Assembly: GCA_001418405.1 (NCBI GenBank)
Contig: LIQL01000090.1
Coordinates: 1-32,438 of the forward strand
DNA: 32,438 nucleotides
Reading direction: 5' to 3'
From: Streptomyces diastatochromogenes
GTDB lineage: Bacteria; Actinomycetota; Actinomycetes; Streptomycetales; Streptomycetaceae
The notes under the pieces: model-generated
Told to the model about the DNA's origin: nothing
What the model saw: the letters and a program-made list of their open reading frames with translations, nothing else
Databases searched by the model: none
Translations under genes and position numbers: made by a program
Part shown: piece after piece, positions 164 through 24,343 of the stretch
Layout of the letters: the number at the start of each line of letters is the position of its first letter
Numbering within the stretch: the first letter of the stretch is position 1

Positions 164-914
164 CGGCTGACCTCTCTTGCGTGTGGTGGGTGCGGCGAAT
201 GTCCGTGAAGCGCGGACATGTCCCTGACCAGGACGGATACGTAAGGGTAGCGGTCTGCACCGACTTGATCGCGGGAACCCGCGGCTCGGTTGCTGGGCCA
301 TACGGGGGTGTTGGGCGGGGCGAGGGTTTCGGTCGGCGCGGCGTCGGGCCGGAAAGCGCATGTCGGGCCACGCGAATAGGGCGCGCGCTCTTCGAGGGAA
401 AGCCCGATTGATCGTTTTCAAAGGGGCGTTCCTGTCGCTCGTATGGCGGCTCTTGACCGCATTCATGGTGCAGAAGTTACGTATGAGATGCCCCATGTGA
501 CGGATAGCGAAATTGTCGACGAACTCGTCACGGGGGTTCCGGGCGGAGCGGTCGATGCCTCAACTGCTCCGATGCAAGGGCAAGTTCAGGTGGGGGTGAT
601 GGAGGGCCGCCGGATATCGGTGTTGTCAGTCCCGAAGAGGGTGTTTTGTCGCCAGCTGTTCACCCGTGCTTCGTTTCACGTGAAACATGAGCGTGGTGCG
701 GTCAGTTGTCACAGATCTTGCGGCCCCGCTTGCGCACATCACGTGGGGGAAACGAACAGGCAAGAGCTCGGTAAGAAGTAAGTCGCGCAGGTATCCGATT
801 CGCGGATGCGTCCGTCTTCTCCGGTGACCATTGTCCTGAGCCGCCCGTTGTGCCTCGGGGGGCGGCCGGTGAGAAGGCAAGAACCCTTTCGAGGGTGACG
901 GGAGATGTGGGCGC
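164..914. other. 750-bp non-coding region with one parS-like site
   Basis: No reading frame here has convincing codon bias. Roughly positions 380-790 are visibly less G+C-rich than the rest of the window. The region should hold the promoter of the leftward gene starting at 163 and that of the esterase starting at 915. Near the left end is a perfect 10-bp palindrome GGACATGTCC (214-223) and a related GGACAT nearby at 199-204 on the same (leftward) strand, possibly a regulator site. A parS-like palindrome is at 673-686. I see no clear RNA gene or terminator. Confidence 0.5.
673..686. repeat. parS-like palindrome GTTTCACGTGAAAC
   Basis: Perfect 14-bp match to the Streptomyces ParB-binding consensus. 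The palindrome does not extend beyond 14 bp on either side. It lies in non-coding DNA about 230 bp upstream of the esterase start. It is the leftmost of nine copies in the window. The match is seen directly; ParB binding is inferred. Confidence 0.8.
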
Positions 915-2195
915 ATGGGGCTGACCAGTCAGTCGCTCGAAATCACAGTGATCGTCCTGGCGGTGGTCTGTGTTGCCGCGACGGTGTGGCTCTGGCCCCG
1001 ACTGTCGCGGAACGGGTGGCGTCACGTGTTGGGGAGGCTGGGGGCCATCGTGGTCACCCAGGTGTCGATCGTGGCTGCGCTCGCCCTCGCCGTGAACACG
1101 AACTTCGAGTTCTACGGCAACTGGGACGAGCTGCTGGGCAACAACGATCAGGCACCGGCCTCGGTGAGCCAGGGGGACGGGCAGTACGCCACGGTCGGCA
1201 ACATCAAGGGCGGACTGATCCAGCCCGCCGGCCCCCAGGGGCTCGACCGGGTGACCGGACTGCCGAAGGGCCCGGCCGACAAGGTGGGCAAGGTCGAGTC
1301 GGTGCGGATCATCGGCCGCCGCACCCGGGCCATCAACCCGGGCTTCGTCTATCTGCCGCCGCAGTACTTCCAGCAGCAGTTCCACCGACAGCGGTTCCCC
1401 GTCATGGTCGTCATCAGCGGCTACCCCGGCGGGATCATGAACCTCGCGCAGCACCTGCAGATCCCGCAGAACGCCGGTCGGCTGATCGCGCAGGGCAAGA
1501 TGCAGCCGACCGTGATCGTGATGGTGCGGCCGACCATCGCGCCGCCGCGCGACACCGAGTGCGTGGATGTGCCGGGCGGCCCGCAGGCCGAGACGTTCTT
1601 CACCAAGGACCTGCCGGACGCCATGAAGTCGGCCTACCGGGTGGGCCACGACCCCAGTGCCTGGGGGGCTTTCGGATACTCGTCCGGTGGCACCTGCTCG
1701 CTCCAGCTGGCGATGCGCAACCCGCAGGCGTACACCTCCGCGGTCTCGCTCTCCGGTGACTACGCGATCAAGGACGACCTGACCACCGGCAGCCTCTTCG
1801 GCCCCGGTCCGACCGGTGCCCAGCGCCAGCACGAACACGATCTGCTGTGGCGGTTGCAGCACCTGCCCGCGCCGCAGGTCTCCGCGCTGGTGGCCAGCAG
1901 CCGCCAGGGCGAGTCGGACTACGGCGACACCATGAAGTTCATCCACGCGGTGAAGGCGCCGATGCGGGTCGACTCGATCATCCTGCCCCGCGGCAGCCAC
2001 CAGTTCGGGACCTGGCGCAGGGAGGTCGTGCCGGCCCTGGAGTGGCAGAGCCAGCAGCTGACGTTCCCGCAGGACACCGAGCCGAACGCGCCGCAGAAGC
2101 CGGCACCGGGCGGGGAGAAGGGCGCGGCCAAGGGACAGGCGCCGGCCGACGACCGGTCCCACAAGCGGGTGGAGGCGGAGCGCCCGCAGGGCTGA
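915..2195 (+). CDS. Membrane-anchored alpha/beta-hydrolase (esterase family)
   Basis: 426 aa. Two hydrophobic segments near the N-terminus (about residues 8-28 and 38-62) should anchor the protein in the membrane, with a hydrolase domain after them that probably faces outward. The nucleophile elbow is GYSSG with Ser256 (DNA 1680-1682), and a late His362 in GSHQFGTW fits the catalytic His of an esterase-D/mycolyltransferase-like fold. The C-terminus is a charged, Pro/Ala-rich tail. The ATG at 915 is chosen because a GGGAG sequence lies about 10 nt upstream; an overlapping ATG at 905 opens a shadow frame. It is followed by a strong hairpin terminator and appears monocistronic. The substrate is unknown. 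Confidence 0.85.
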   Translation: MGLTSQSLEITVIVLAVVCVAATVWLWPRLSRNGWRHVLGRLGAIVVTQVSIVAALALAVNTNFEFYGNWDELLGNNDQAPASVSQGDGQYATVGNIKGGLIQPAGPQGLDRVTGLPKGPADKVGKVESVRIIGRRTRAINPGFVYLPPQYFQQQFHRQRFPVMVVISGYPGGIMNLAQHLQIPQNAGRLIAQGKMQPTVIVMVRPTIAPPRDTECVDVPGGPQAETFFTKDLPDAMKSAYRVGHDPSAWGAFGYSSGGTCSLQLAMRNPQAYTSAVSLSGDYAIKDDLTTGSLFGPGPTGAQRQHEHDLLWRLQHLPAPQVSALVASSRQGESDYGDTMKFIHAVKAPMRVDSIILPRGSHQFGTWRREVVPALEWQSQQLTFPQDTEPNAPQKPAPGGEKGAAKGQAPADDRSHKRVEAERPQG

Positions 2196-2225
2196 CGCGA
2201 CCGCCGGCAGGGCGGTGACGTGCGC

Positions 2226-2260
2226 GAAGGGGGCGCCGGACAGGGTCCGGTGCCCCCTTC
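2226..2260 (+). terminator. Stem-loop terminator after the esterase
   Basis: Two 16-nt arms (2226-2241 and 2245-2260) pair with one G-T wobble around a 3-nt AGG loop. The hairpin begins 30 bp after the esterase stop. There is no long U-tract, as is usual in Streptomyces. It may also serve the convergent deacetylase gene. Confidence 0.8.
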
Positions 2261-2369
2261 GTCATGCGGTCGCTCCCCCGGGTGAGGGCGCCGCTCCCCT
2301 CTCCGACCGCAGCGTCCGGGACGCGGGCCCCGCCCCAACGGGACCTCGGCCCGTCCCGACGGGCCCGGT

Positions 2370-3167
2370 TCACGGCCGGTAGACCATCCCCGGTTCCGGC
2401 TTCGCCGGGGAGAGCAGCTGCGACACGGTGACGACCGTGTAGCCGCGCTTCTTGAGCTCCTTGAGGATGCCGGGGACGGCCGGCACGGTGCCTTTGTAGA
2501 TGTCGTGCAGCAGGATGATGCCGTCGCGCTTGGTCTGGTCGAGCACCCGCTTGGTGATCAGGTCCGAGTCGGTGGTCTGGTAGTCCTTCGCGGTCACGCT
2601 CCACAGGACCTGTGCCAGGCCGAGCTCCTTGCTGATCTTGGAGACCTCTTCGTCGGTCCGGCCCTGCGGCGGGCGCATCAGCGTGGGCGTCTTGCCGGTG
2701 ATCTTGCGGACGTCCTCCTGGACCCGGGACAGTTCGCGTTTGGCCTCGTCCGGCTTGATCTCCGTGAGGATCTTGTGGGACCAGGTGTGGTTGGCCAGCT
2801 CGTGGCCCTCGGCGTCGATCCGCTTCACCTCGGCGGGGCGCTCGGCGATGTGGTTCTTGCCGAGCATGAAGAACGTGGCGTGGGCCTTGTTCTCCTTGAG
2901 GATGTCCAGCAGCCGGTTGGTGTTCTCGCTCGGGCCCGCGTCGAAGGTCAGCGCCACGCACTTGGCCTTGCCGCAGTCGACGGCACCGTCACCGGCTCCG
3001 GCCTTCGCGTCCTGGGCCTTGGCGTCGCTCGGCGCGGCGTCGGCTCGGGCGTCGGCCGGTGTGGTGACGTCGTACGAGGCGCAGCCGCTGAGGGTCAGGG
3101 CCAGGGAGGCGGCCGTCAGCAGCCCGAGTACGGACGAGCGGCGGGTCGCGGATATCTGCTTCGGCAT
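2370..3167 (-). CDS. Lipoprotein polysaccharide deacetylase (NodB domain, CE4)
   Basis: 265 aa. The signal peptide ends in a lipobox LSGC with Cys29, so an exported lipoprotein is expected, followed by an Ala/Asp-rich linker. The NodB domain runs from about residue 70. Motif 1 reads TFDAGP (Asp76, Ala77), where most family members have TFDDGP. The metal-binding His pair is present in NHTWSH (His127, His131). RPPQG fits motif 3 and LLHD fits the last motif. The likely role is N- or O-deacetylation of cell-wall glycans. The start at 3165-3167 is preceded by AGGAAAG; longer versions of the frame lack the signal peptide at their start. The Asp-to-Ala change at the second motif-1 position may alter metal binding. 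Confidence 0.88.
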   Translation of the reverse strand: MPKQISATRRSSVLGLLTAASLALTLSGCASYDVTTPADARADAAPSDAKAQDAKAGAGDGAVDCGKAKCVALTFDAGPSENTNRLLDILKENKAHATFFMLGKNHIAERPAEVKRIDAEGHELANHTWSHKILTEIKPDEAKRELSRVQEDVRKITGKTPTLMRPPQGRTDEEVSKISKELGLAQVLWSVTAKDYQTTDSDLITKRVLDQTKRDGIILLHDIYKGTVPAVPGILKELKKRGYTVVTVSQLLSPAKPEPGMVYRP

Positions 3168-3355
3168 TGCGGTGTCTTTCCTGGAGTCGTTCGCCGGTGA
3201 GCCGGCGGCTGTGGAGTTCTCGGCCGTCTTCCTCGGATCCCTGCGCCCACGGGCGGTGCCCGGAGCGTCCGCGTCCCGGTCTCCGGGCATGGCGAAGCGG
3301 ACGCGAACGGGCCGTGGCCCGGCGCGCCGATCGCCTTCCGAACGGACTCCCAGGA

Positions 3356-3387
3356 CTATACACATGGGGTACACACCGTGTGTATAG
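3356..3387. promoter_or_regulatory. Inverted repeat, candidate operator in a divergent promoter region
   Basis: CTATACACATGG (3356-3367) and CCGTGTGTATAG (3376-3387) form 12-bp arms with one mismatch and an 8-bp spacer. They lie in the 303-bp gap between the divergent deacetylase and transporter genes, 83 bp before the first permease start. It is unusually A/T-rich for this DNA. It could bind a dimeric repressor of either gene. I do not recognise the regulator. Confidence 0.55.
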
Positions 3388-3470
3388 AGGGGGTGGGGTG
3401 GGGCGCTGGCAGCAGCCCGATCGGACGCACCCCGCGCGACACCCCACCGCACCCGCGGTGAACTGCTGCT

Positions 3471-4202
3471 GTGACCGCCCCGCCGGACGACTGCCTGGCC
3501 CGCAACGACTGGATCTGCGGCGACTACCTGAGCACCCGCCGCCAGATCCTGCTCGACGCGGTCGGCCAGCACGTGCAGTTGACCGTGGTCTCGGTGGGCC
3601 TCGGGCTGGTGATCGCCGTCCCGCTGGCGCTGCTGGCCCGCCGTCGACGGTGGACGGTCGGGCCGGTCCTCGGCATCACCACCGTGCTCTACACGATCCC
3701 GTCGTTGGCGATGTTCTCGCTGCTGCTGCCGGTCTACGGCCTCTCCGCCACCCTCGTCGTGGTCGGCCTGGCGCTCTACTCCCTCACCCTGCTGGTCCGG
3801 AACATCCTCGCGGGCCTCGACGGCGTGCCGGCCGGTGCCACGGAGGCCGCCCGGGGCATGGGGTACGGGCCGATGCGGCAGTTGCTGACGGTGGAACTGC
3901 CGTTGGCGGTGCCCGCCGCGATGGCCGGTCTGCGCATCGCCACGGTCTCCGCGGTCGCCCTGACCACCGTCGGCGCGATCGTCGGCTACGGCGGGTTGGG
4001 CAACCTCATCTACGCGGGCATGAACTCCTACTTCAAGGCGCAGGTGCTGACCGCGTCCGTGCTCTGCGTGCTCATCGCGGTCGCCTTCGACCTGCTGCTG
4101 CTCGGCCTGGAACGCCTGCTCACGCCGTGGCGGCGGGCCGGCCGCAGCCCGCGACCGGCCCGCGGGCGACGGCCGCTCACCGCCTCCGGACGGCGGGCGT
4201 GA
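3471..4202 (+). CDS. Osmoprotectant-type ABC transporter permease 1
   Basis: 243 aa polytopic membrane protein of the OpuCB/ProW type. The EAA loop that docks on the ATPase is visible as GATEAARGMGYGPMRQ, followed by the VELPLAVPAAMAGLR segment typical of quaternary-amine importers. About five to six hydrophobic helices are apparent. The GTG start at 3471 has only a poor ribosome binding site, so a leaderless or weakly translated message is possible. Its end overlaps the next permease by 4 bp (GTGA), indicating translational coupling. Likely substrates are glycine betaine, choline or related solutes, judged from family only. Confidence 0.88.
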   Translation: MTAPPDDCLARNDWICGDYLSTRRQILLDAVGQHVQLTVVSVGLGLVIAVPLALLARRRRWTVGPVLGITTVLYTIPSLAMFSLLLPVYGLSATLVVVGLALYSLTLLVRNILAGLDGVPAGATEAARGMGYGPMRQLLTVELPLAVPAAMAGLRIATVSAVALTTVGAIVGYGGLGNLIYAGMNSYFKAQVLTASVLCVLIAVAFDLLLLGLERLLTPWRRAGRSPRPARGRRPLTASGRRA

Positions 4203-4873
4203 GCACCCCCGCCGCCGTCTGGTCCTGGCTGACCACCGCTGCCAACTGGTCGGGCGAGAACGGCATCGGGCACCGGCTCGCCCAGCACGCCGTGCTCACC
4301 TTCGCCTGCCTCGTCCTCAGTGCCCTCATCGCCCTGCCGATCGCGCTGACGCTGGGCCATCTGGGCCGCGGTGGCGCCCTCGCGGTCAACCTCGCCAACG
4401 TCGGCCGTGCGGTGCCGACCTTCGCGGTCCTCGTCCTGCTCCTGCTGACCCCGCTCGGGCGGCACGGGCAGTGGCCGACGGTCATCGCGCTGGTGCTGTT
4501 CGCCGTGCCGCCGCTGCTGACCAATGCCTACGTCGGGATGCGCGAGGTGGACCAGGACGTGGTCCGGGCCGCCCGGGGCATGGGGATGACCGGGATGCAG
4601 CTGGTGTGGCGGGTGGAGGCGCCGCTCGCCCTGCCGCTGGTGTTGACCGGGGTGCGGATCGCCGCCGTGCAGCTCGTCGCCACCGCCACGCTGGCCGCCC
4701 TGGTGGGCGGCGGCGGGCTCGGCCGCATCATCACCGCCGGCTTCAATCTGGCCAGTACCCCGCAGGTGGTGGCCGGCGCGGTGGTGGTCGCGGTGTTCGC
4801 GTTGTTGATGGAGGCCGTGTTCGAGCTGGTCCAGCGGTTCGCCCCGGCGAGGGCGCGCGGGCGGCCCCGGTGA
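4199..4873 (+). CDS. Osmoprotectant-type ABC transporter permease 2
   Basis: 224 aa, GTG start inside the GTGA overlap with the preceding permease. It has the same fold as permease 1, with an EAA loop DVVRAARGMGMTGMQLVW and the VEAPLALPLVLTGVR segment. Two different permeases next to a binding protein are the usual layout of OpuC/OsmU importers. It overlaps the start of the binding-protein gene by another 4 bp (GTGA). The three genes are therefore one coupled operon. Confidence 0.88.
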   Translation: MSTPAAVWSWLTTAANWSGENGIGHRLAQHAVLTFACLVLSALIALPIALTLGHLGRGGALAVNLANVGRAVPTFAVLVLLLLTPLGRHGQWPTVIALVLFAVPPLLTNAYVGMREVDQDVVRAARGMGMTGMQLVWRVEAPLALPLVLTGVRIAAVQLVATATLAALVGGGGLGRIITAGFNLASTPQVVAGAVVVAVFALLMEAVFELVQRFAPARARGRPR

Positions 4874-5859
4874 GGGCGTGGCGTGCGGGCTCTGCCCTGC
4901 TCCGCCCGGTCCGGGGCGTGCTCGGCGCGTCGAGCGCCCTGGCCGTCCTGTGCGGGCTGGTCTCCTGCGCCGGTGGGCCGTCGCTGGAACACCGGGGTGC
5001 GGTCACCGCCCCGCCCGGCGACAGCCGCGATCTCGCCATCGGCTCGGCCGGTTTCACCGAGAGCGAGTTGCTGGCCCAGATGTACGCGGCGCTGCTCGGC
5101 CACGCGGGCTACCGCACCCAGGTCCTCACCGTCGGCAACCGCGAGCTGTACGAACCCGCGCTGGAGGCCGGCCAGATCGACGTCGTCCCGGAGTACGCCG
5201 CCACCTTCGCGGACTGGCTCAACGCCAAGAAGCACGGCCCCGAGGCCGCCCCCGTCGCCTCCCCCGACCTGGACCGCACCATGGCCGCCCTGCGCCGCCT
5301 CGCCGCCCCGCGTGGTCTGACCGTCCTCCCGCCGGGCCGGGCCGTCGACCAGAACGCCTTCGCGGTGCGTGCCGCCTACGCCGCCGAGCACCACCTGCGC
5401 ACCCTCAGCGACCTGGGCCGCGCCAAGCTGCCGGTACGGCTGGCGGCGGGTGACGAGTGCGTCCAACGGCCGTTCTGCGCACCGGGCCTGCGGAAGACGT
5501 ACGGCATCGACATCACCGCCGTGGATCCCAAGGGCGTTGGCACCACGCCCGCGAAACAGGCGGTGCAGAACGGCCAGGACCAGATGGTGCTGACGACCAG
5601 CACGGACGCCACCCTCGACCAGTTCGGTCTCGTCGTCCTCGCCGACGACCGAAAACTCCAGAACGCCGACTACGTCGTCCCCGTCGTCAACCGCGCCCGG
5701 GCCGGCAGCGCCCGCCCGGCCGCCGCTCTGAACCGCCTCAATCACGTGCTGACCACCGAAGACCTGGCCCACCTCAACGAGCAGGTCGACAGCTGGCGTC
5801 GGCTTCCCGCCGACGTGGCGCACAACTACCTGGTGTCGAAAGGTCTGTTGCAGGACTGA
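4870..5859 (+). CDS. Osmoprotectant-type ABC transporter substrate-binding lipoprotein (OpuCC/OsmF family)
   Basis: 329 aa. An N-terminal hydrophobic segment ends in the lipobox LVSC (Cys33), so the mature protein should be tethered to the outer face of the membrane. The start of the domain, IGSAGFTESELLAQMY, matches the family signature of quaternary-amine binding proteins, and VVPEYAATFADWL is the conserved region that follows. The start is the GTG of the GTGA overlap with permease 2. The gene ends 14 bp before a large inverted repeat that separates it from the convergent ATPase gene. Confidence 0.88.
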   Translation: MRAWRAGSALLRPVRGVLGASSALAVLCGLVSCAGGPSLEHRGAVTAPPGDSRDLAIGSAGFTESELLAQMYAALLGHAGYRTQVLTVGNRELYEPALEAGQIDVVPEYAATFADWLNAKKHGPEAAPVASPDLDRTMAALRRLAAPRGLTVLPPGRAVDQNAFAVRAAYAAEHHLRTLSDLGRAKLPVRLAAGDECVQRPFCAPGLRKTYGIDITAVDPKGVGTTPAKQAVQNGQDQMVLTTSTDATLDQFGLVVLADDRKLQNADYVVPVVNRARAGSARPAAALNRLNHVLTTEDLAHLNEQVDSWRRLPADVAHNYLVSKGLLQD

Positions 5860-5873
5860 CCGGGACGGGAGAG

Positions 5874-5930
5874 GTTTCACGTGAAACACCCACCAGGAGC
5901 GACGGCCAGGGTGGGTGTTTCACGTGAAAC
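5874..5930. terminator. Perfect 21-bp inverted repeat with a parS-like site in each arm
   Basis: The arms at 5874-5894 and 5910-5930 are perfect reverse complements separated by 15 nt. Each arm contains a complete GTTTCACGTGAAAC (5874-5887 and 5917-5930) joined to a C/G-rich block ACACCCACC or its complement. The element lies between the stop codons of two convergent genes (5859 and 5950). A very stable hairpin would form in either transcript, so a bidirectional terminator is likely. The paired parS-like sites add a possible ParB-binding role. Confidence 0.8.
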
Positions 5931-5949
5931 ACCACGCCCCGGCCGCCCC

Positions 5950-7107
5950 TCATTCCGTCGGGACCGAGTCCACCTCCGGCCGTCCCCGCGACACCTCACG
6001 GTCCTCCGGGGTGATGGTGCGGCGCAGCGCCTCGTGCAGGGTGGTCGGGGTCAGGACGCCCAAGAAGCGCCTACCGTCCAGGACCGCGATCCAACCCGCG
6101 TCGTGCTTCAGCATTTCGCTGAACGCCGCCTTGAGGGTTCCGGACGCCGGGATCCACGCCTCCATCCGCCGCGCATGGTCCGCCACGGTTCCCCCGGCGC
6201 CCGCCAGACGCTCGGTGCCCACCCAGCCGTGCAGCGCCCCGTCGGCGTCCAGCACCACCGCCCAGCGCGCTCCTTCGGCCCGCAGCCGGGCCACTGCCTC
6301 CGCGGCCGGCTCGGCGAGCCGGGCGAACGGCGGACGCTCCAGGTCGGCGCGATCGATGGCGGTCACCGAGAGTTGTTTCAACGCCCGGTCGGCGCCCACG
6401 AATTCGGCGACGTAGGGCGTGGCGGGTGCGCCCAGCACCCGCGCCGGGGTGTCGAACTGCTCGATCCGCCCGTCGCCGTAGACGGCGATCCGGTCGCCGA
6501 GCCGGATGGCCTCCTCGATGTCGTGGGTGACCAACAGCACCGTCTTGTGCATGGTGGCCTGGAGCCGCAGGAACTCCTTCTGGAGGCGGTCCCGGACGAC
6601 CGGGTCGACGGCGCCGAACGGCTCGTCCATCAGCAGCACCGGCGGATCGGCCGCCAGGGCGCGGGCCACCCCGACCCGCTGCCGCTGACCACCGGAGAGC
6701 TGATCGGGGTAGCGCGTGCCGTAGACGCCCGGATCCAGCCCGACCAGGTCGAGGAGTTCGGCGGCCCGCTCCCGCGCCTTGGCCCGCTTCCAGCCGCTCA
6801 GAACGGGCACGGTCGCGGTGTTGTCGAGGACGGTGCGGTGCGGGAAGAGCCCGGTCTGCTGGATGACGTAGCCGATCCCGCGGCGCAGCCGGACCGGGTC
6901 GACACCGGACACGTCCGCGTCGTCGACGAAGATCCGTCCACTTGTGGGGTCGATCAGCCGGTTCACCATCATCATCGTCGTCGTCTTGCCGCACCCGGAC
7001 GGTCCGACCAAGGTGACCAGCTCACCCTCGTCGACGTCGAACGAGAGGTCGTCGACAGCGGTGGTCCCGTCGGGATAGCGCTTGGTGACCGACTCGAACC
7101 GGATCAT
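5950..7107 (-). CDS. Osmoprotectant-type ABC transporter ATP-binding protein with CBS domains
   Basis: 385 aa. The ATPase domain carries Walker A GPSGCGKTT, signature LSGGQRQRV, Walker B VLLMDEPF and the switch His in VTHDIEEA. The region after about residue 245 resembles the tandem CBS domains that sense ionic strength or nucleotides in OpuA/OpuC ATPases; the last CBS-like segment includes WIAVLDGRRFLGVLTPTTL. It most likely energises the two permeases encoded at 3471-4873. Unlike the common arrangement, it is not co-transcribed with them but converges on them. The ATG at 7105-7107 begins with MIRFESVTKRYPDG, the usual family start. Confidence 0.88.
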   Translation of the reverse strand: MIRFESVTKRYPDGTTAVDDLSFDVDEGELVTLVGPSGCGKTTTMMMVNRLIDPTSGRIFVDDADVSGVDPVRLRRGIGYVIQQTGLFPHRTVLDNTATVPVLSGWKRAKARERAAELLDLVGLDPGVYGTRYPDQLSGGQRQRVGVARALAADPPVLLMDEPFGAVDPVVRDRLQKEFLRLQATMHKTVLLVTHDIEEAIRLGDRIAVYGDGRIEQFDTPARVLGAPATPYVAEFVGADRALKQLSVTAIDRADLERPPFARLAEPAAEAVARLRAEGARWAVVLDADGALHGWVGTERLAGAGGTVADHARRMEAWIPASGTLKAAFSEMLKHDAGWIAVLDGRRFLGVLTPTTLHEALRRTITPEDREVSRGRPEVDSVPTE

Positions 7108-7295
7108 TGCGCCATTGAATCCCGCTGCCCCGGACCGGTCCCGTCATGCGGGCAATCGAGTGGGGAAACGGAACGGGGACGGGGGCCGTACGAGTTGCTT
7201 CCGGGGCACCGCCTCCCGTCCTGCCGCGCCCGGCCCGGCCGGCGTGCTTACGATCCACTCCGGCCGCTCCTCGGAAGGGTGGAAGGGAACGCCAC

Positions 7296-8237: not shown

Positions 8238-8267
8238 GGGCGCCCGCCCCCGGTCCCGAGCGGGCCG

Positions 8268-9341: not shown

Positions 9342-9532
9342 GCGTCCCGGTCCTTCCTGCGACGGCGATGGCTGCCATCTCCAGGCAAGTCCGTACGCCG
9401 GTCGGTCGCGAGCGGGACGGGTGCCAATGGGTGACCGCGCGGGCGAGCGGGCGCACGGGTGACCCGGCGCCGGGGTGGGCCCGCGCGCTGCTCAGCCGGG
9501 TGCCCGCTGCTTCGACGCGCGGCGGCGGCCGG

Positions 9533-10747: not shown

Positions 10748-10767
10748 CTCGTTTCACGTGAAACGAG
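10748..10767. repeat. parS-like palindrome extended to 20 bp
   Basis: GTTTCACGTGAAAC (10751-10764) is flanked by CTC and GAG, giving a perfect 20-bp palindrome. It lies 28 bp after the stop of the leftward tsaD gene and about 200 bp upstream of the leftward CDF exporter. It could therefore act as a terminator-like hairpin for tsaD as well as a ParB site. Confidence 0.78.
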
Positions 10768-10794: not shown

Positions 10795-11868
10795 TCAGGC
10801 GGCCCGTGCGCGGCCCGCGGCGACGGGGTGCAGCGCCGCATACTCCAGAGGTGCCGACGGATCGATGGACACGTCGAGCGGCGCCGGTGCGGTGCCGGCC
10901 CGGACGAGCAGGTCGCCGACGGCCGCGATCATCGCGCCGTTGTCCGTGCACAGCCCCAGCGGCGGGACCCGCAGGGCGATGCCGGCGGCGGCACAGCGCT
11001 CCTCGGCCAGCGCGCGCACCCGGGAGTTGGCCGCCACGCCGCCGACCACCACCAGCGTGCCGACGCCGTGCTCGGTGCAGGCGGCGACCGCCTTGCGGGT
11101 CAGCACGTCGGCGACGGCCTCTTGCAGCGCGGCCGCGCCGTCGGCGACCGGCAGCGGACGGCCCGCGGCGCGGTGCGTCTCCGCCCAGCGCGCCGCCGCC
11201 GTCTTCAACCCCGAGAAGGAGAACGCGAACCGCTTCTCGGCCGGGCCCGTGGTGAGCGGGCGGGGAAAGTGGACAGCGCGCGGATCCCCCTCGCGCGCTG
11301 TCCGGTCGATGGCCGGACCGCCCGGGTAGGGCAGTCCGAAGACCCGCGCGACCTTGTCGAAGCACTCGCCGGCGGCGTCGTCCACCGTGTCGCCGAGGTG
11401 CACGATCGGGTCGCGGGCCAGGTCCCGTACGAGCAGCAGCGACGTGTGCCCGCCGGAGACGATCAACACCACGCAGGGGTCGGGCAGCGGACCGTGCGCG
11501 AGGGTGTCGGCGGCGACGTGACCGGCGAGGTGGTGGACGCCGTAGAGCGGGACGCCCAGCGCGTACGCCAGCCCTTTGGCCCCGGCCAGTCCCACCTGGA
11601 GCGCGCCGGAGAGTCCCGGTCCGGTGGTGACCGCCACCGCCCCGATGTCGGATGCCCGTAGGCCCGCGTCGGCCAGTGCGCTGCGCACCACGGGCGTCAG
11701 CGCGTGCAGGTGTGCCCGGGCGGCGATCTCCGGCACCACTCCGCCGAACCGCGCGTGCTCCGCCATGCTCGACGCGACGGTGTGCCCGAGCAGGCGCCCG
11801 TCCCGGACCAGGCCGGCGCCCGTCTCGTCGCAGGACGATTCGATGCCCAGCACCACCGGCGAGCCCAT
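10795..11868 (-). CDS. tsaD: TsaD-family tRNA threonylcarbamoyladenosine synthase subunit
   Basis: 357 aa, close to the usual family length. The start [13 protein letters not shown] is the family hallmark, followed by [24 protein letters not shown], the metal-binding HHLAGH (His113 and His117), [21 protein letters not shown] and CTDNGAMIA. The family transfers the threonylcarbamoyl group to A37 of ANN-decoding tRNAs together with TsaB (and TsaE in bacteria). The ATG at 11866-11868 has GAAGGAG upstream. No tsaB, tsaE or rimI is adjacent, so this is a stand-alone gene. It may be a second, diverged paralogue; the sequence alone cannot show whether another copy exists. Confidence 0.9.
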
Positions 11869-14717: not shown

Positions 14718-14731
14718 GTTTCACGTGAAAC
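14718..14731. repeat. parS-like palindrome GTTTCACGTGAAAC
   Basis: Perfect 14-mer in the 81-bp gap between the convergent small secreted protein gene (stop 14667) and cbiD (stop 14749). The palindrome does not extend past 14 bp. Its position again suggests a gene-end hairpin overlapping a ParB-type site. Confidence 0.8.
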
Positions 14732-14748
14732 ATCCGGCGCCAGTCGCG

Positions 14749-15912: not shown

Positions 15913-15929
15913 GGAGGAACCCGCCGCTC

Positions 15930-16700: not shown

Positions 16701-16714
16701 CGCCGCGCGGGCGG

Positions 16715-18280
16715 TCAGCGCTCGGGGTACCTGCGCGGCGTCCAGACCACCTCCGAGTCGTCCCCGCGCCGGACCCGCCGGGTCTGGGACGAGCCGACGA
16801 GCAGGATGGTGCGCATGTCGACCTGGGCGGGGTCGAGGTCGGTGAGCCGCACGGTGCGGAGCGATTCCTCGGGGCCGCCTATGTCGCGGGCGAGGATGAC
16901 CGGGGTGTCCGGCGCGCGGTGCTCCAGCAGGACGTCCCGGGCCTTCGCCACCTGCCAGGTGCGGCTGCGGGAACCGGGGTTGTAGAGCGCCAGCGCCAGG
17001 TCGGCGGAGGCCGCCGCGCGCAGCCGTTCGGCGATCACCTCCCAGGGCTTGAGGCGATCGGAGAGCGAGAGCACCGCGTAGTCGTGGCCCAAGGGGGCGC
17101 CGGCGCGGGCGGCGGCGGCGTTGGCGGCCGTGACGCCCGGCAGCACGCGCACCGGAACGGAGCGGTAGGGCTCCTCCGACGCCACTTCCAGGACCGCCGT
17201 GGCCATGGCGAAGATGCCGGGGTCGCCGCCGGAGACCACGGCCACCCGGCGGCCGCGGCGGGCCAGGTCCAGGGCGAATTCGGCGCGTTCGGACTCGACC
17301 TTGTTGTCCGAGGGGTGCCGGCGCTGGCCGGGGCGCACCGGGACGCGGTCCAGGTACGTGGTGTAGCCGACGAGGTCGTCGGCGGCGGCGAGGGCGCCGC
17401 GGGACTCCGGGGTGAGCCAGCGCGGGCCGGCCGGGCCGGTGCCGACCACGACCACCTCACCGCGGTCCGCGGCCACCGGATCCGGCTCCTCCGCGGCGGT
17501 GGCGATGCGGCTGGGCACCACCGCGACTGAGAAGTACGGCACGGAGTCGGCATCGATGTCGGAGAACGCGCCGGTGCGCTCCCCGGCCATGGTGGCGCGC
17601 TCGACGTAGCGGGCCTCGGTGAGCCGGCCGGAGCGCTCCAGCGCACGACGGACACCGGGGAAGGTGCGCCCGAGCTTCATCACGACGGCGGAGTCGGTGG
17701 CGCTCAGACGCGCCGTCAGCTCCTCCTCGGGCAGGGTGCCGGGCAGGACGGTCAGCACCTCGTCGGCCTCGGTGAGCGGGGTGCCCAGCCGGGCCGCGGC
17801 GGCACTGATGGAGGTGACGCCGGGGATGACCTCGGTCGGGTAGCGGTGGGCCAGCCGCTTGTGCATGTGCTGGTAGGAGCCGTAGAAGAACGGGTCGCCC
17901 TCGGAGATCACCGCGACGGTGCGGCCGGCGTCCAGGTGGGCCGCGAGGCGCGCCGCCGCCGCTTCGTAGAACTCGTCCAGGGCTCCGCGGTAGCCGCCGG
18001 GATGGTCGGTCGACTCGGTGGTGACCGGATAGACCAGGGCTTCCTCGATGTGGTCCGGGCGGATGTGCTGCGCTGCGATGGAGCGCGCGATCGACCGGCC
18101 GTGCCGGGCGCTGTGGTAGGCCACCACGTCGGCCAGGGCGATGACCTCCACCGCACGCACGGTCATCAGGGACGGGTCGCCGGGGCCGAGGCCGACGCCG
18201 TAGAGGTGGCCGGTGGACCGCTCCGGGGACTGCGCGGCCGCCGGGGCCGTCGTGCCGCTGCTCGCCTGCTGCTCGCTCAC
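16715..18280 (-). CDS. cobIJ: CobIJ fusion: precorrin-2 C20- and precorrin-3B C17-methyltransferase
   Basis: 521 aa fusion of two tetrapyrrole methylases, as commonly found in actinobacteria. The CobI half (about residues 25-255) begins LYGVGLGPGDPSLMT and has ISEGDPFFYGSY. The CobJ half (about 272-521) begins VVVVGTGPAGPRWLTPES and has VVSGGDPGIFAMA and LYNPGSRSR. The GTG start at 18278-18280 has GAGGAAGAG upstream and lies 2 bp after the cobH stop. A much longer frame continues upstream but only as a shadow of cobH and cobG. The CobJ loop has Ala in GPAG where Gly is usual. Confidence 0.92.
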   Translation of the reverse strand: MSEQQASSGTTAPAAAQSPERSTGHLYGVGLGPGDPSLMTVRAVEVIALADVVAYHSARHGRSIARSIAAQHIRPDHIEEALVYPVTTESTDHPGGYRGALDEFYEAAAARLAAHLDAGRTVAVISEGDPFFYGSYQHMHKRLAHRYPTEVIPGVTSISAAAARLGTPLTEADEVLTVLPGTLPEEELTARLSATDSAVVMKLGRTFPGVRRALERSGRLTEARYVERATMAGERTGAFSDIDADSVPYFSVAVVPSRIATAAEEPDPVAADRGEVVVVGTGPAGPRWLTPESRGALAAADDLVGYTTYLDRVPVRPGQRRHPSDNKVESERAEFALDLARRGRRVAVVSGGDPGIFAMATAVLEVASEEPYRSVPVRVLPGVTAANAAAARAGAPLGHDYAVLSLSDRLKPWEVIAERLRAAASADLALALYNPGSRSRTWQVAKARDVLLEHRAPDTPVILARDIGGPEESLRTVRLTDLDPAQVDMRTILLVGSSQTRRVRRGDDSEVVWTPRRYPER

Positions 18281-18282
18281 GC

Positions 18283-18915
18283 CTACTCTTCCTCGCTCGC
18301 CAGGGCGTTGATCGCGGCCGCGGCCATGGCACTGCCGCCGCGCCGCCCGCGCACCACGATGTGATCCAGCTTCGACGGATGGTCGATCAGCGCGTCCTTG
18401 GATTCGGCCGCGCCTATGAAGCCGACCGGGATGCCGAGGACGGCGGCGGGGCGGGGCGCCCCCTCCTCGATCATTTCGAGGAACCGGAAGAGCGCGGTGG
18501 GCGCGTTGCCGAAGGCGACCACTGCGCCCTCCATCCGGTCCCGCCACAGTTCGAGGGCGGCAGCGCTGCGTGTGGTGCCCATCCGCGCGGCGAGCTCCGG
18601 GACCGACGGGTCGCCGAGGGTGCACAGCACCTCGTTGTCCGCCGGCAGCCGCTTGCGGGTCACCCCGCTGGCGACCATCGTGGCGTCGCACAGGATCGGC
18701 GCACCGGCCCGCAGCGCGGCGCGCGCACTGGCCACGACGCCCGGGGTGAAGGCCAGATCGCGGACGAGATCGACCATGCCGCAGGCGTGGATCATCCGGA
18801 CCGCGACCCGGCTGACGTCGGCGGGCAGTGCGGAGAGATCCGCCTCGGCGCGGATGGTGGCGAAGGACTGGCGGTAGATGGCCGCCCCGTCCTTTTCGTA
18901 GTCGAACGCGGTCAC
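18283..18915 (-). CDS. cobH: CobH: precorrin-8X methylmutase
   Basis: 210 aa, standard length. It moves the C11 methyl group to C12 to give hydrogenobyrinate. Conserved segments include [11 protein letters not shown] with the catalytic His region, [25 protein letters not shown], and [16 protein letters not shown]. The GTG start at 18913-18915 overlaps the cobG stop by 4 bp (GTGA), so cobG, cobH and cobIJ form a translationally coupled operon. Confidence 0.93.
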
Positions 18916-20420
18916 TGGGGCCTCGGGGTGGTGGGTTGAGGGGTGGAGGGGAGCGGGGCAGCCGGAGGGGCGGCGGATGCGCTCGGCGTTTCACGTGAAA
19001 CGACGCCCGGCCGGGGCGTTTCACGTGAAACGGTGCCCGGCCCGGCTGTTTCACGTGAAACCGGCGGTCGGGCAAGGGACTTGGGAGGCATCGCGGTGGT
19101 CCGATAGCCGTCGGGCGTCGCCAGCACGTCGACCCACGCACCGTGCGGATGGCCGCACCGCCGCTCGCAGCCCGACCAGTGCACGGGCAGCCCGACGGGC
19201 GCACCCGAACCGTCCGCCGGAACCGTTTCGCCCCCGGCGAGCACGCCCGCCGCATCGCTCCGCACGTCGGTCAGGGACTTGGCGCAGCCCGGCAGGCCGG
19301 TGCAGGCGGTGACCCGGCGCCAGGGGGATGCCGGGTCGGTGATCAGGCCGGCGGCGGCGAACTCGCGCAGCCGCCGGTGCGCCGGTGCGGCGGCCAGGCC
19401 GGGGACGATGACACCGCGCCAGGGCGTGAGGCGCAGTTCGCCGTCGCCGTCCGCGGCGGCGGTCGCGGTCAGCAGCCGCCACTGGGCCGCGGTCAGCCGG
19501 CCGAGCGGTGCCAGGACCGCCAGCGCGCGGCGACCGTCGGGCCCGTCGACCGGGCCGGGGGCGGTGGCATCGGCGTAGTGCGCGGCCGACCCTGGGACGG
19601 GGGCGGCCGGATGTTCCACGTGCTCCGCGGCGATGCCCGCGGCCCGCAGCGCACGCTGCACCTCCTGGGCGGTCAGCGGTCCTGCGGTGGGGAGCTCACG
19701 GACGCGCCAGGCGCCGCTGCCGCGCTCCGCGGCGGCGGCCAGGAAGACCTCGGCGGCCATCAGGGCCGCCCGCGGGGCGTCGTCCGCCGCGATCCGCAGT
19801 GCCGCCCGGTCGTCGCCGACCCGGAGCAGCGCTCCCCACCCGGACGCGGCGCCCGGCGCGTACCCGGCGGCCGGTGGGTCCTGTCGACCGGATTCTGCGA
19901 GCAAGGTCACATCGCCGCCCAGGCCGGCCACGTCGCCCCGACCGTCGTCGACGACGAACAGGAAGCGGCCCGAAAGTCCTGTCGCGGCATCGCTCGCACA
20001 CAGCAGCGCGTCCAGGCTCCGGGCCCACAACCGCACGTCGGAGGGGGTGTGCCGGTCCAGTCCGGCCAGCGGCGAGGCCAGTACGTTGCGGATCCGCTCA
20101 TGGCGTACGGACGGCAGCAGCCCGGCGTCGGCGAGGAGGTCGGCGAGGTGCCGGCCGCCGTCGTCGGGCAGGCCACGCAGTTCGACGTTGCCGCGGGAGG
20201 TGAGCGAGAGGTGCCCGTCGCCGAGGCGTTCCGCGGCGTCCGCCAGGGCGGTGGCCTGGCGGACCGTCAAGTCCCCTGCGGGGAGCCGCACTCGGGCCAG
20301 GTTCCCGTCGGCGGCGGAGTGCAGCCGCAGCGCTCCCGGGCAGGCGTCGCCGCGGTCCCGAACGGGTGGTTCGGCCCGGTCGGGGCGTGGTGCGGGGGAG
20401 GGCGGCATGGCGGCGAGCAT
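18912..20420 (-). CDS. cobG: CobG: precorrin-3B synthase (siroheme/Fe-S family) with a repeat tail
   Basis: About 502 aa of the nitrite/sulfite-reductase-like family; it converts precorrin-3A to precorrin-3B using oxygen. [10 protein letters not shown] and the Cys motifs [10 protein letters not shown] and [12 protein letters not shown] fit a 4Fe-4S/siroheme-type centre. The domain ends near residue 450. The last 50 or so residues are a low-complexity tail with three VSRET repeats encoded by three parS-like sites, then Ala/Pro/Thr-rich sequence. Two starts are possible, at 20420 and 20408; neither has a strong ribosome binding site. This is the first gene of the cobG-cobH-cobIJ operon and diverges from cobN. 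Confidence 0.88.
18988..19061. repeat. Triple parS-like array with 30-bp period inside cobG
   Basis: Three perfect GTTTCACGTGAAAC copies at 18988-19001, 19018-19031 and 19048-19061. The two 16-bp spacers agree at 11 of 16 positions and share GCCCGGCC, so the unit probably arose by tandem duplication. The array is in frame with cobG, each copy coding VSRET in a 10-residue repeat. It lies outside the recognisable catalytic domain. Confidence 0.88.
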
Positions 20421-20508
20421 ACCTACGTCGGTTTCGCCCGGAACCGTGGCGAGGGGGGCGTGGAGGGCGGCTCCGAAAGGCCCGCTCCCGCGGTGCGGCC
20501 GCAGCCCT

Positions 20509-20514
20509 TACTAT
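20509..20514 (+). promoter_or_regulatory. Candidate -10 element for the cobN leader
   Basis: TACTAT fits TANNNT and lies just before the riboswitch aptamer, so transcription would start at about 20520 with the aptamer at the 5' end. No good -35 hexamer is visible in the G/C-rich DNA upstream. Confidence 0.4.
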
Positions 20515-20517
20515 GCA

Positions 20518-20650
20518 GGTCGGCGGGTCGGCTGACCCGCCGGACGCCAGCGACGGCGCCAAGGGAGGAAGCCCGGTGAGAATCCGGCGCGGTCCCGCCA
20601 CTGTGAACCCGGCCACCGCCGGGTGAGCCAGGAACTCCCGCCGTCCATAC
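20518..20650 (+). promoter_or_regulatory. Cobalamin riboswitch
   Basis: The conserved core is easily recognised: GCCAGCGACGG, then GGAAGCCCGGTGAGAATCC and the B12-box segment CGGTCCCGCCACTGTGA (20590-20606), a CCCGGC/GCCGGG helix, and GAGCCAGGAACTC (20625-20637). An upstream hairpin with 8-bp arms GGCGGGTC/GACCCGCC (20522-20541) is a peripheral helix. The cobN ribosome binding site GAGGAAGG follows about 25 nt after the aptamer, so control by masking of that site on adenosylcobalamin binding is likely. No strong intrinsic terminator is obvious. Confidence 0.93.
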
Positions 20651-20690
20651 GACCACCCGGGGCGTGGACACCCCGAGGAAGGGCTGCGCC

Positions 20691-23600
20691 GTGATCCTGC
20701 TGCTGTCGACGTCCGACACCGATCTGCTCAGCGCCCGGGCGGCCACGGGTCCCGTGCCGTACCGGCTCGCCAACCCCGCCCGCCTCGACGTCGCCGAACT
20801 CCCCGGACTCCTCGAGGGCACCGACCTCGTCGTCGTCCGGCTGCTCGGCGGCATCCGCGCCTGGCAGGACGGCCTGGACGTGCTGCTGGCCGCGGGCCAG
20901 CACCGCCCGGTCGTCGTGCTCACCGGCGAACAGGCCCCCGACGCCCAGCTCATGGAGGCGTCCACGGTCCCGGTCGGCATCGCGGCCGAGGCGCACGCCT
21001 ACCTCGCGCACGGCGGTCCGGCCAACCTCTCCCAGCTGGCCTGCTTCCTCAGCGACACCGTTCTGCTCAGCGGCCACGGCTTCGAGCCGCCCGCGGCCGC
21101 CCCGTCCTGGGGCCCGCTGGAGCGTCCGGCGTCGGAGGCGACCGGCCCGACCGTGGGGGTGCTCTACTACCGCGCCCATCACATGAGCGGCAACACCCGC
21201 TTCATCCACGACCTGTGCGACCAGGTCGAGCGGGCCGGCGGTCGCCCGCTGCCGCTGTACGTCGCCTCGCTGCGGGCCCCCGAGCCGGAGCTGATCGAGG
21301 AGCTGCGCGCCGCCGACGTCATCGTCACCACCGTGCTGGCCGCGGGCGGCACCAAGCCCGCCGAAGCCTCCGCGGGCGGCGACGACGAGTCCTGGGACGC
21401 CGGCGCGCTGACCGCCCTGGACGTGCCGATCCTGCAGGCGCTCTGCCTGACCGGCGCGCGCGCCGCCTGGGAGGAGAACGACGAGGGCCTCTCCCCGCTC
21501 GATGCCGCCTCGCAGATCGCCGTGCCGGAGTTCGACGGGCGCCTGATCACCGTGCCGTTCTCGTTCAAGGAGATCGACGAGGACGGGCTGCCGGTGTACG
21601 TCGCCGACGCCGAGCGGGCCGCCCGGGTCGCCGGGATCGCCGTCCGGCACGCCCGGCTGCGCCACATCCCGGCCGCCGAGAAGCGGCTGGCGCTGGTGCT
21701 GTCGGCGTACCCCACCAAGCACTCCCGGATCGGCAACGCGGTCGGTCTGGACACCCCGGCGAGCGCCGTCGCGCTGCTGCGCCGCCTGAAGGCCGAGGGC
21801 TACGACTTCGGTACCGAGCCGGTACCCGGCCTGGCGTCCGGCGACGGCGACGAGCTGATCTACGCCCTCATCGAGGCCGGCGGCCACGACCAGGAGTGGC
21901 TGACCGAGGAGCAGTTGGCCCGCAATCCGGTCCGCATCCCGGCCGCCGAATACCGCCGCTGGTACGGCACGCTGCCGCAGGAGCTGCGGGAGTCCGTGGA
22001 GGAGCACTGGGGCCCGCCGCCGGGCGAGATGTTCCTCGACCGCAGCCGCAACCCCGAGGGCGACATCGTGCTGGCCGCGCTGCGCCGCGGGAACCTGCTG
22101 ATACTGATCCAGCCGCCGCGCGGCTTCGGCGAGAACCCGATCGCGATCTACCACGACCCCGATCTGCCGCCCTCGCACCACTACTTGGCGGCCTACCGCT
22201 GGATCGCCACCCCCACCGCCGACGGCGGGTTCGGCGCCGACGCCATGGTCCACCTCGGCAAGCACGGCAACCTGGAGTGGCTGCCCGGCAAGAACGCCGG
22301 CCTCTCCGCCGCCTGCGGTCCGGACGCGGCGCTCGGCGACCTGCCGCTCGTCTACCCGTTCCTGGTCAACGACCCGGGCGAGGGCACCCAGGCCAAGCGC
22401 CGGGTGCACGCCACGCTCGTCGACCACCTCGTGCCGCCGATGGCCCGCGCGGACTCCTACGGTGACATCGCCCGGCTTGAGCAACTGCTCGACGAGTACG
22501 CCGCGATCTCCTCGATGGACCCGGCCAAGCTGCCCGCGATCCGCGCGCAGATCTGGACTCTGATCCAGGCCGCCAAGCTCGACCACGACCTGGGCCTGGA
22601 GGCACGTCCGGACGACGACGGCTTCGACGACTTCCTGCTGCACGTCGACGGCTGGCTCTGCGAGGTGAAGGACGCGCAGATCCGCGACGGCCTGCACGTC
22701 CTGGGCGCCGCCCCGGTCGGCGAGGCCCGGGTCAACCTCGTGCTGGCGATCCTGCGCGCCCGGCAGATCTGGGGTGGCACCTCCGCGCTGCCCGGGCTGC
22801 GCGAGGCGCTGGGCCTGGACGAGTCGGCCGCGACCCGCACCGCCGCCGACGAAGCCGAGGCGGTCGCCCGCGGACTGGTCCAGGCCATGGAGGACGCGGA
22901 GTGGGACCCGGCCGCGGTGGCCCGGGTCGCCGAGGGGCACCCGACCGCGGTCGCGGACGTCCTCGACTTCGCCGCCCGGCAGGTCGTCCCGCGGCTGGCC
23001 GGCACCACGGCCGAGGTCGACCACGCGGTGCACGCCCTGAACGGCGGGTTCGTCCCGGCCGGCCCGTCCGGCTCGCCGCTGCGCGGCCTGGTCAACGTCC
23101 TGCCGACCGGCCGCAACTTCTACTCCGTGGACCCCAAGGCCGTCCCGTCGCGGCTGGCCTGGGAGACCGGGCAGGCGCTCGCCGACTCGCTGCTGACCCG
23201 CTACCGCGAGGACAACGGTGACTGGCCGGAGTCGGTCGGCCTGTCCCTGTGGGGCACCAGCGCGATGCGCACCTCCGGCGACGACGTGGCGGAGGCGCTC
23301 GCGCTGCTGGGTGTCCGCCCCGTCTGGGACGACGCCTCGCGCCGGGTGACCGGTCTGGAGGCCGTCGAACCCGACGAGCTGGGCCGCCCCCGGATCGACG
23401 TCACCCTGCGCATCAGCGGTTTCTTCCGGGACGCGTTCCCGCACGTCATCGGCCTGCTCGACGACGCGGTGCGGCTCGCCGCCGGCCTCGAGGAGCCCGC
23501 CGACCGCAACTTCGTCCGGGCCCACGCCCAGGCGGACCTCGCCGCACACGGCGACGAACGCCGGGCCACCACCCGGATCTTCGGCTCCCGTCCCGGCACG

Positions 23601-24293
23601 TACGGCGCGGGCCTGCTCCAGCTCATCGACTCCCGCGACTGGCGCACCGACGCCGACCTCGCCGAGGTCTACACCGTCTGGGGCGGCTACGCCTACGGGC
23701 GCGGGCTGGAGGGCCGTCCCGCCCGGGAGGAGATGGAGACGGCGTACAAGCGCATCGCGGTGGCCGCCAAGAACACCGACACCCGCGAGCACGACATCGC
23801 CGACTCCGACGACTACTTCCAGTACCACGGCGGAATGGTCGCCACCGTCAAGGCGCTCAAGGGCAAGGCGCCCGAGGCGTACATCGGCGACTCGACCCGC
23901 CCCGAGACGGTCCGCACCAGGACGCTGGTGGAGGAGACCTCCCGGGTCTTCCGGGCCCGGGTCGTCAACCCCCGCTGGATCGAGGCGATGCGCCGCCACG
24001 GCTACAAGGGCGCCTTCGAACTCGCCGCCACCGTGGACTACTTGTTCGGCTACGACGCCACGACCGGGGTCGTCGCCGACTGGATGTACGACAAGCTCGC
24101 CCAGACCTACGTCCTGGACCCGGAGAACCGCGCGTTCCTCCAGGAGGCGAACCCCTGGGCGCTGCACGGAATCGCCGAGCGCCTCCTGGAGGCCGAGTCC
24201 CGCGGCATGTGGGAGAAGCCGGACGCGGAGACGCTGGCGGCGCTGCGCGAGGCGTTCCTGGAGACCGAGGGCGAGCTGGAGGGCGAGGACTGA
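20691..24293 (+). CDS. cobN: CobN: cobaltochelatase large subunit
   Basis: 1200 aa, typical for CobN. It inserts Co2+ into hydrogenobyrinate a,c-diamide with ATP-hydrolysing partner subunits (CobS/CobT or ChlI/D-like), which are not in this window. Family segments include YYRAHHMSGNTRFIHDL, SAYPTKHSRIGNAVGLD, MVHLGKHGNLEWLPGK, GGFVPAGPSGSP and LPTGRNFYSVDPKA-like sequence. The GTG at 20691 (ILLLSTSDTDLLSAR) is preceded by GAGGAAGG at 8-nt spacing. An in-frame GTG at 20664 is less likely because it lies before this ribosome binding site. A cobalamin riboswitch precedes the gene. It ends at a hairpin carrying a parS-like site. Confidence 0.95.
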   Translation: MILLLSTSDTDLLSARAATGPVPYRLANPARLDVAELPGLLEGTDLVVVRLLGGIRAWQDGLDVLLAAGQHRPVVVLTGEQAPDAQLMEASTVPVGIAAEAHAYLAHGGPANLSQLACFLSDTVLLSGHGFEPPAAAPSWGPLERPASEATGPTVGVLYYRAHHMSGNTRFIHDLCDQVERAGGRPLPLYVASLRAPEPELIEELRAADVIVTTVLAAGGTKPAEASAGGDDESWDAGALTALDVPILQALCLTGARAAWEENDEGLSPLDAASQIAVPEFDGRLITVPFSFKEIDEDGLPVYVADAERAARVAGIAVRHARLRHIPAAEKRLALVLSAYPTKHSRIGNAVGLDTPASAVALLRRLKAEGYDFGTEPVPGLASGDGDELIYALIEAGGHDQEWLTEEQLARNPVRIPAAEYRRWYGTLPQELRESVEEHWGPPPGEMFLDRSRNPEGDIVLAALRRGNLLILIQPPRGFGENPIAIYHDPDLPPSHHYLAAYRWIATPTADGGFGADAMVHLGKHGNLEWLPGKNAGLSAACGPDAALGDLPLVYPFLVNDPGEGTQAKRRVHATLVDHLVPPMARADSYGDIARLEQLLDEYAAISSMDPAKLPAIRAQIWTLIQAAKLDHDLGLEARPDDDGFDDFLLHVDGWLCEVKDAQIRDGLHVLGAAPVGEARVNLVLAILRARQIWGGTSALPGLREALGLDESAATRTAADEAEAVARGLVQAMEDAEWDPAAVARVAEGHPTAVADVLDFAARQVVPRLAGTTAEVDHAVHALNGGFVPAGPSGSPLRGLVNVLPTGRNFYSVDPKAVPSRLAWETGQALADSLLTRYREDNGDWPESVGLSLWGTSAMRTSGDDVAEALALLGVRPVWDDASRRVTGLEAVEPDELGRPRIDVTLRISGFFRDAFPHVIGLLDDAVRLAAGLEEPADRNFVRAHAQADLAAHGDERRATTRIFGSRPGTYGAGLLQLIDSRDWRTDADLAEVYTVWGGYAYGRGLEGRPAREEMETAYKRIAVAAKNTDTREHDIADSDDYFQYHGGMVATVKALKGKAPEAYIGDSTRPETVRTRTLVEETSRVFRARVVNPRWIEAMRRHGYKGAFELAATVDYLFGYDATTGVVADWMYDKLAQTYVLDPENRAFLQEANPWALHGIAERLLEAESRGMWEKPDAETLAALREAFLETEGELEGED

Positions 24294-24313
24294 CGGCTCG
24301 GGGGCGTGACGGA

Positions 24314-24343
24314 GGGGCGGTGTTTCACGTGAAACACCGCCCC
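24314..24343. terminator. Perfect 30-bp palindrome centred on a parS-like site
   Basis: GTTTCACGTGAAAC (24322-24335) is extended on both sides by GGGGCGGT and ACCGCCCC, giving 15 matched pairs without a mismatch. It lies between the convergent stops of cobN (24293) and the MFS gene (24375). The RNA from either strand can fold into a stable hairpin, so a bidirectional terminator is likely, combined with a possible ParB site. Confidence 0.8.

Follow-up and report, generated by a model that had tools for sequence, protein, structure and literature searches.

Bacterial centromeres usually consist of a handful of sites, and Bacillus subtilis, a member of a different lineage, has far fewer parS than the streptomycetes considered here. 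The closest described systems are the parS fields of Streptomyces coelicolor and Streptomyces venezuelae, which have the same core motif, the same cognate genes beside dnaA and the same clustering around oriC as the sites described below. In S. venezuelae, ParB was found bound at 16-17 sites (PMC12511625), and a matrix scan of 20 closed streptomycete chromosomes gave a mean of 22.8 parS and a range of 11-65, the maximum of 65 belonging to S. albidoflavus J1074, with 79.86% of sites to the right of oriC and this right bias kept across the family (PMC8743542). Here we describe nine perfect copies of the 14-mer palindrome GTTTCACGTGAAAC in a stretch of 32,438 nucleotides from Streptomyces diastatochromogenes (contig LIQL01000090.1; 'the window' denotes this whole stretch). 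The sites are very likely ordinary chromosomal parS in kind, and are unusual in number, place and context: unlike S. coelicolor and S. venezuelae, this genome holds 55 perfect copies, about half of them on the dnaN side, in clusters of up to four and including an in-frame array in a cobG-like gene, which is predicted to serve vitamin B12 synthesis. We consider it highly probable that the nine palindromes are parS at which ParB loads, forming the left-arm (dnaN-side) wing of the centromere, which is predicted to lie 106-132 kb from dnaA. As read from sequence, the form is that of a left-arm, clade-specific and partly coding enlargement of the centromere.

All nine perfect copies stand exactly where the first-pass annotation of the window had placed them, and all lie, as it also said, in the left three quarters of the window. 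They are listed here without strand; G numbers are our labels for congeneric genomes, S. diastatochromogenes itself being G000.

673..686, parS site 1: perfect 14-mer upstream of an esterase-like gene; orthologous site in G199, G335, G289 and G215
5874..5887, parS site 2a: in the gap where an opuAC-like and an ABC-ATPase-like gene converge; the locus has two copies in G161 and G218 too
5917..5930, parS site 2b: 43 nt from 2a
10751..10764, parS site 3: perfect 14-mer
14718..14731, parS site 4: just past the 3' end of a CbiD-like gene
18988..19001, parS site 5a: within the cobG-like frame, read on the minus strand as VSRET
19018..19031, parS site 5b: 30 nt (10 codons) from 5a, VSRET
19048..19061, parS site 5c: 30 nt from 5b, VSRET
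24322..24335, parS site 6: in the gap where the cobN-like gene and an MFS gene converge

A chance origin of these copies is excluded, as matches allowing up to two mismatches averaged 0.05 over 100 dinucleotide shuffles and never exceeded 1; the window itself contains no additional match at one or two mismatches. Across the genome (9.117 Mb in 937 contigs, the window being C889) there are 55 perfect copies over 13 contigs: 18 on C56, 13 on C90, nine in the window, six on C578 and one on each of nine others. Allowing one mismatch raises the count only to 58, the three further copies lying on these same contigs at C56:38662, C503:2239 and C479:2463, and the backward pattern used as a control has no copy in this genome and, over 392 genomes, was found at a single place in just one. 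The outcome that had been named beforehand as a refutation, copies in the hundreds and spread evenly, was not found; the copies number in the tens and are clustered. Among the 110 half-sites of the 55 perfect copies, the base adjoining the core on the outside is T in only about 1%. The absence of partition and replication genes from the window is also upheld, in that no dnaA, parA or parB turned up among those of its frames, a part of the total, that were scanned with Pfam. These genes are found on C56, where dnaA and parB are about 5 kb apart with a ParA-type gene between them, and where the products carry ParA-type AAA_31 and ParB_N/HTH_ParB domains. The genome has one TIGR00180 (ParB) match, again on C56 (E<=0.001, 18 candidates scored), and the HTH region of ParB is strongly conserved over 30 genomes. 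Cognate parA and parB thus lie beside dnaA on the same chromosome as the sites, the arrangement that marks parS of a chromosomal ParABS system.

Comparison with G199 and G335 orders the contigs as C578 (reversed), C56, C503 (reversed), a further stretch, C90 and the window, with the window starting some 0.5-0.7 kb past the end of C90, by collinearity with contig C23 of G199. The window sites are accordingly predicted to lie 106.5-132.4 kb (from G199) or 108.3-130.8 kb (from G335) from dnaA, on the dnaN side and opposite parB; PMC8743542 orients the chromosome with parB to the 'right' of oriC, which puts the window on the left arm. G161 and G114, relatives that are each a single contig, have every one of their copies (40 and 35) within 280 kb of oriC, so that clustering around oriC is seen directly in these genomes and by synteny for the window. 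The suggestion of a dense, oriC-proximal parS field is thus supported by the genome count, by synteny and by single-contig relatives. A rearranged chromosome, offered alongside it, is not needed: apart from some insertions, the gene order of the window is kept in G161, G218 and G114, and cobN lies less than 250 kb from parB in six of ten named Streptomyces chromosomes in which contig identity is safe.

The sites are conserved at orthologous places and vary in copy number within them. Of 30 clusters on nine mapped contigs, 28 could be matched in G199, 27 of these with parS, and 29 in G335, all with parS; the sole cluster lacking parS in G199, C90:18521, aligned there over only 110 of 1014 bases. 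Copy number per locus is equal at 18/28 loci in G199 and 22/29 in G335, and differs elsewhere (given as S. diastatochromogenes/G199/G335): 3/5/3 at C56:38563, 4/2/1 at C90:12681, 1/3/3 at C56:40752 and 3/2/2 at 19.0 kb in the window. The outer flanks show per-position identities of 57-94% between genomes, and the spacers vary among genomes. All six loci of the window (673; 5.9; 10.75; 14.7; 19.0; 24.3 kb) carry parS in S. diastatochromogenes, G199, G335, G289 and G215. G161 and G218, with their insertions, have parS only at the 5.9-kb pair, apart from one more in G161 near 28.7 kb; G114 has none at the window equivalent, and in G110, G271, G117 and G013 the matching stretches, which cover about 12-24 kb of the window, hold none. 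Further afield, 73 of 80 named Streptomyces cobN loci have no parS within 10 kb of cobN, as far as the sequence compared extends, the others being MspMP-M5 (8), NRRL F-4489 (10), S. rhizoryzae (4), S. chattanoogensis (2) and three with one each. The window sites were probably gained in place, and what is new at the window is the sites and not the position of the genes.

The 14-mer is present in 392/392 congeneric genomes searched, with a minimum of 5 copies, and only seven have at least 40: G199 (69), G289 (68), G335 (62), S. diastatochromogenes (55), G215 (50), G218 (47) and G161 (40). In a parB tree of 30 genomes, picked with a lean to high counts and few-contig assemblies, these seven form one clade with G390 (30 copies), G114 (35) and G318 (30), with support of 100/100, and S. 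diastatochromogenes, G199, G289, G335 and G215 form an inner group within it (99/95). The six genomes with at least 47 copies need one change on this tree, a value as low being reached in none of 500 shuffles, on a branch that is itself weak (73/46). The inner group of species has apparently built its centromere up to 50-69 copies.

This growth is accompanied by a change in arm balance. With oriC set 8.5 kb from the start of parB, the parB side holds 71-86% of sites in four of the five genomes measured outside the clade (G013 18/22, G271 11/14, G117 12/14, G324 25/35) and 45-57% in clade members (G318 17/30, G114 20/35, G161 18/40, G199 30/62, G335 25/56), where the counts cover 62 of the 69 sites of G199 and 56 of the 62 of G335, and G215, G218, G289 and G390 are outside the tally. 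S. diastatochromogenes itself has 24 sites on the right, 27 on the left and 4 unplaced, and so does not show a parB-side share of about 80%. In absolute numbers the parB side ranges over 11-30 sites and the dnaN side over 2-32; both rise, the left more. The sites are thus of the same kind as those on the chromosomes of PMC8743542, from which the five clade members and G110 differ in their parB-side share of 45-57%; the right-arm bias is weakened or gone, and the family-wide statement of that study fails for the clade members measured.

Part of the enlargement runs through coding sequence. The first-pass annotation located the three copies at 18988-19061 correctly, and its account was incomplete in that these are not intergenic and sit in a cobG-like reading frame. 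The genes concerned, with the neighbouring gene used for comparison between genomes, are:

18912..20420, minus strand: cobG-like gene with NIR_SIR ferredoxin-like half domains; its C-terminal tail holds the array 5a-5c
18283..18915, minus strand: CbiC-like gene (precorrin-8X methylmutase); its frame overlaps that of the cobG-like gene at the latter's end
20664..24293, plus strand: CobN/Mg-chelatase-like gene, the anchor for comparing the 80 named loci

The cobG-like frame is free of stops from its NIR_SIR domains down to 18912, which places the array in-frame. It ends in GTGA in 11/11 genomes compared, and in the window its TGA stop overlaps the GTG with which the CbiC-like frame starts. The tail bears one to three perfect parS in seven genomes (the five of the inner group, MspMP-M5 and NRRL F-4489), always in the VSRET frame, at distances of 30, 60 or 84 nt and followed by a nearly identical last ten residues; the tails of G161, G218, G114 and S. 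nigrescens are without parS. Among the 80 named loci, VSRET occurs in the last 120 residues of 3 of 75 complete cobG-like frames, those of MspMP-M5, NRRL F-4489 and S. rhizoryzae. We infer that these tails would be translated. The codons that spell the motif are rare ones, GTT, TCA, CGT and GAA making up 0.8, 1.3, 4.7 and 15.2% of their respective sets, which points to selection at the level of the DNA.

The cobG-like gene is not alone in this respect. The parB gene itself holds an in-frame parS in 24 of 30 genomes, and near it an anti-sigma-like frame (L021:18182-19273, equal to C56:38182-39273), whose zinc-finger match falls slightly under the Pfam cut-off, has an in-frame array in its linker, with three copies and a decayed one in S. 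diastatochromogenes, five in G199, three in G335 and one in G013. In S. chattanoogensis, single parS at L130:606-619 and 10928-10941 lie in two frames, both readable as VSRET, one in an internal linker of a cobG-like protein and the other at the start of a minus-strand protein, ahead of what looks like a membrane helix. A parS read as VSRET also lies early in a frame next to cobN in S. roseolilacinus (L143:7940) and Streptomyces sp. MUM 203J (L203:7929); the frame looks methylase-like by eye, and this was apparently a separate gain. No study of parS gained within coding sequence could be recognised by its title or the start of its abstract among the literature matches listed, a search for VSRET gave no matching paper, and neither clade-wide growth nor coding arrays find mention in the accessible part of PMC8743542.

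These observations suggest how such a field would work and how it may have arisen. ParB with cytidine triphosphate would load at each site and slide outward. Neighbouring clusters in the window are 5.2, 4.9, 4.0, 4.3 and 5.3 kb apart and ParB of S. venezuelae reaches as far as 2.5-3 kb to either side of parS (PMC12511625), so that adjacent ParB domains would nearly touch; with spreading of this kind, ParB would coat 24 kb of the window almost without a break, and this coat would recruit SMC and ParA as happens at other parS. Within one clade, the field would have been enlarged by gain of sites in place, on the left arm above the right, together with local gain and loss of copies in clusters, and selection on the DNA even within genes would lead coding tails to acquire VSRET repeats. 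In its fullest version, to which we give about an even chance, the lineage is growing a bilateral centromere, in which left-arm accretion proceeds until the right-arm rule vanishes, ParB domains merge into continuous tracts, and selection for the palindrome is strong enough to enter coding sequence, leaving rare-codon VSRET repeats in the tails and linkers of proteins that include the cobG-like, ParB and anti-sigma-like ones.

Several points weigh against this account. The published range of 11-65 means that a high copy number is not in itself new. The contigs of S. diastatochromogenes are unjoined, so that the predicted distance between window and oriC comes from homology and not from assembly. 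Preferring gain over loss is an argument from parsimony with few outgroups, and one of the six loci is occupied in G161 and G218 as well. A weak arm bias is also seen in G110, outside the clade (20/35, or 57%, with one further site on another contig). The invariance of the core stems partly from having searched for perfect copies, and there is a decayed fourth copy at C56:38662 as well as decay in some of the tail repeats. Third-position GC is just 0.75 in the cobG tails that bear parS, a weak coding signature. The regularity of the window, matched by 3 of 715 choices of intergenic loci, was noticed post hoc, and whole fields are irregular (coefficients of variation of 0.92 in G199 and 1.01 in G335); a spacing strictly tuned to ParB spreading, suggestive in the window, is absent over whole fields and was rejected.

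Other explanations can be set against the enlargement of a parS field. The first-pass annotation had raised a second use of the motif, as the operator of a transcription factor or of a Noc-like ParB paralogue with no role in segregation. The palindrome does have a dimer-binding form, and Pseudomonas aeruginosa ParB represses genes beside intergenic parS (PMC7022226), but the single TIGR00180 match provides no second ParB-family protein, and 18 of the 55 copies share a contig with parAB and dnaA. Gene context speaks in the same direction. About 49 of the 55 sites lie outside genes according to a crude, codon-usage gene caller, which shortened parB and so placed at least one in-gene site outside. 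Of 181 intergenic stretches of at least 30 nt, 27 are occupied, 13 of them tandem, 13 convergent and one divergent, whereas length-weighted draws on the same crude calls expect 8.8 divergent and 4.8 convergent, with 0/5000 draws as extreme for either. Avoidance of divergent regions fits a structural site that shuns promoters and not an operator, and we regard the latter as very improbable. A dispersed repeat or mobile element that carries the 14-mer, so that the copies reflect the copying of the element and not selection for parS, strikes us as extremely improbable. Its best argument lies in the flanks: site 6 is the core of a perfect palindrome GGTGTTTCACGTGAAACACC with flanks GGGGCGGT and ACCGCCCC, the GGGGCGGT-parS-ACCGCCCC form recurs at separate loci, palindromy past the 14-bp core exceeds that of 2000/2000 shuffles, and at 12 of 110 half-sites the next outward bases are ACCG. 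However, ACCGCC stands on both flanks at only 2 of the 55 sites, and no shared unit of useful length extends past the core, the flanks varying between loci and diverging between genomes. A cassette spreading with each site likewise finds no support there, though the recurrent GGGGCGGT/ACCGCCCC flanks are left unexplained.

Two further explanations concern history rather than function. That the dense field is ancestral, with relatives having lost sites, would fit the 5.9-kb pair retained by G161 and G218 and the single copies near cobN in three more distant named genomes, but it has to accommodate the 73 of 80 cobN loci without nearby parS, the lack of any in collinear G114 and the 385 of 392 genomes with fewer than 40 copies; we think it unlikely. 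We rate as quite unlikely a move of the cob region towards oriC by rearrangement in the clade, with sites acquired because of it. In its favour, the cob genes of G013, G271 and G117 lie more than 2 Mb from parB and are without parS. ParB was placed for 50 of the 80 named cobN loci, the contig being certain or forced by size in ten; among these cobN is near parB in six (L138 140, L198 144, L157 152, L188 194, L141 218 and L149 241 kb) and far in four (L197 620 kb, L170 2.2 Mb, L177 2.9 Mb and L173 4.8 Mb), and in no case is there a parS closer to cobN than 10 kb. Proximity to oriC is therefore common and not sufficient, and movement of the cob genes next to oriC was dropped as the cause of the gain.

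The clade spans about 30-69 sites, with more of the extra ones on the left arm than on the right, and even close species differ in copy number from one locus to the next. The number of parS and their balance between arms could then be tied to SMC loading, arm alignment and oriC anchoring, and to the question of why Streptomyces keeps many sites that lean to one arm. In B. subtilis the scattered parS likewise provide several SMC loading sites over a wide region; collisions of SMC loaded at multiple sites have been discussed there, with the argument that scattering the sites hinders their avoidance (PMC8357415), which makes a two-sided field of some 50 sites a natural test. The in-frame arrays, for their part, suggest that protein sequence can bear the imprint of a segregation signal.

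The distance between the cob genes and parB ranges from about 140 kb to several Mb among Streptomyces species (L126, L124 and L125 compared with L138, L157 and L198), and the cob genes of G110 are found on the parB side, some 205-217 kb away. An ARAGORN call of tRNA-Gly at 5096-5170 on the minus strand of the window, antisense inside the opuAC-like frame, gave no Rfam match at E<=1 and looks spurious. A cobalamin riboswitch (RF00174, 41.9 bits) occupies 20507-20656 on the plus strand, directly upstream of the cobN-like gene.

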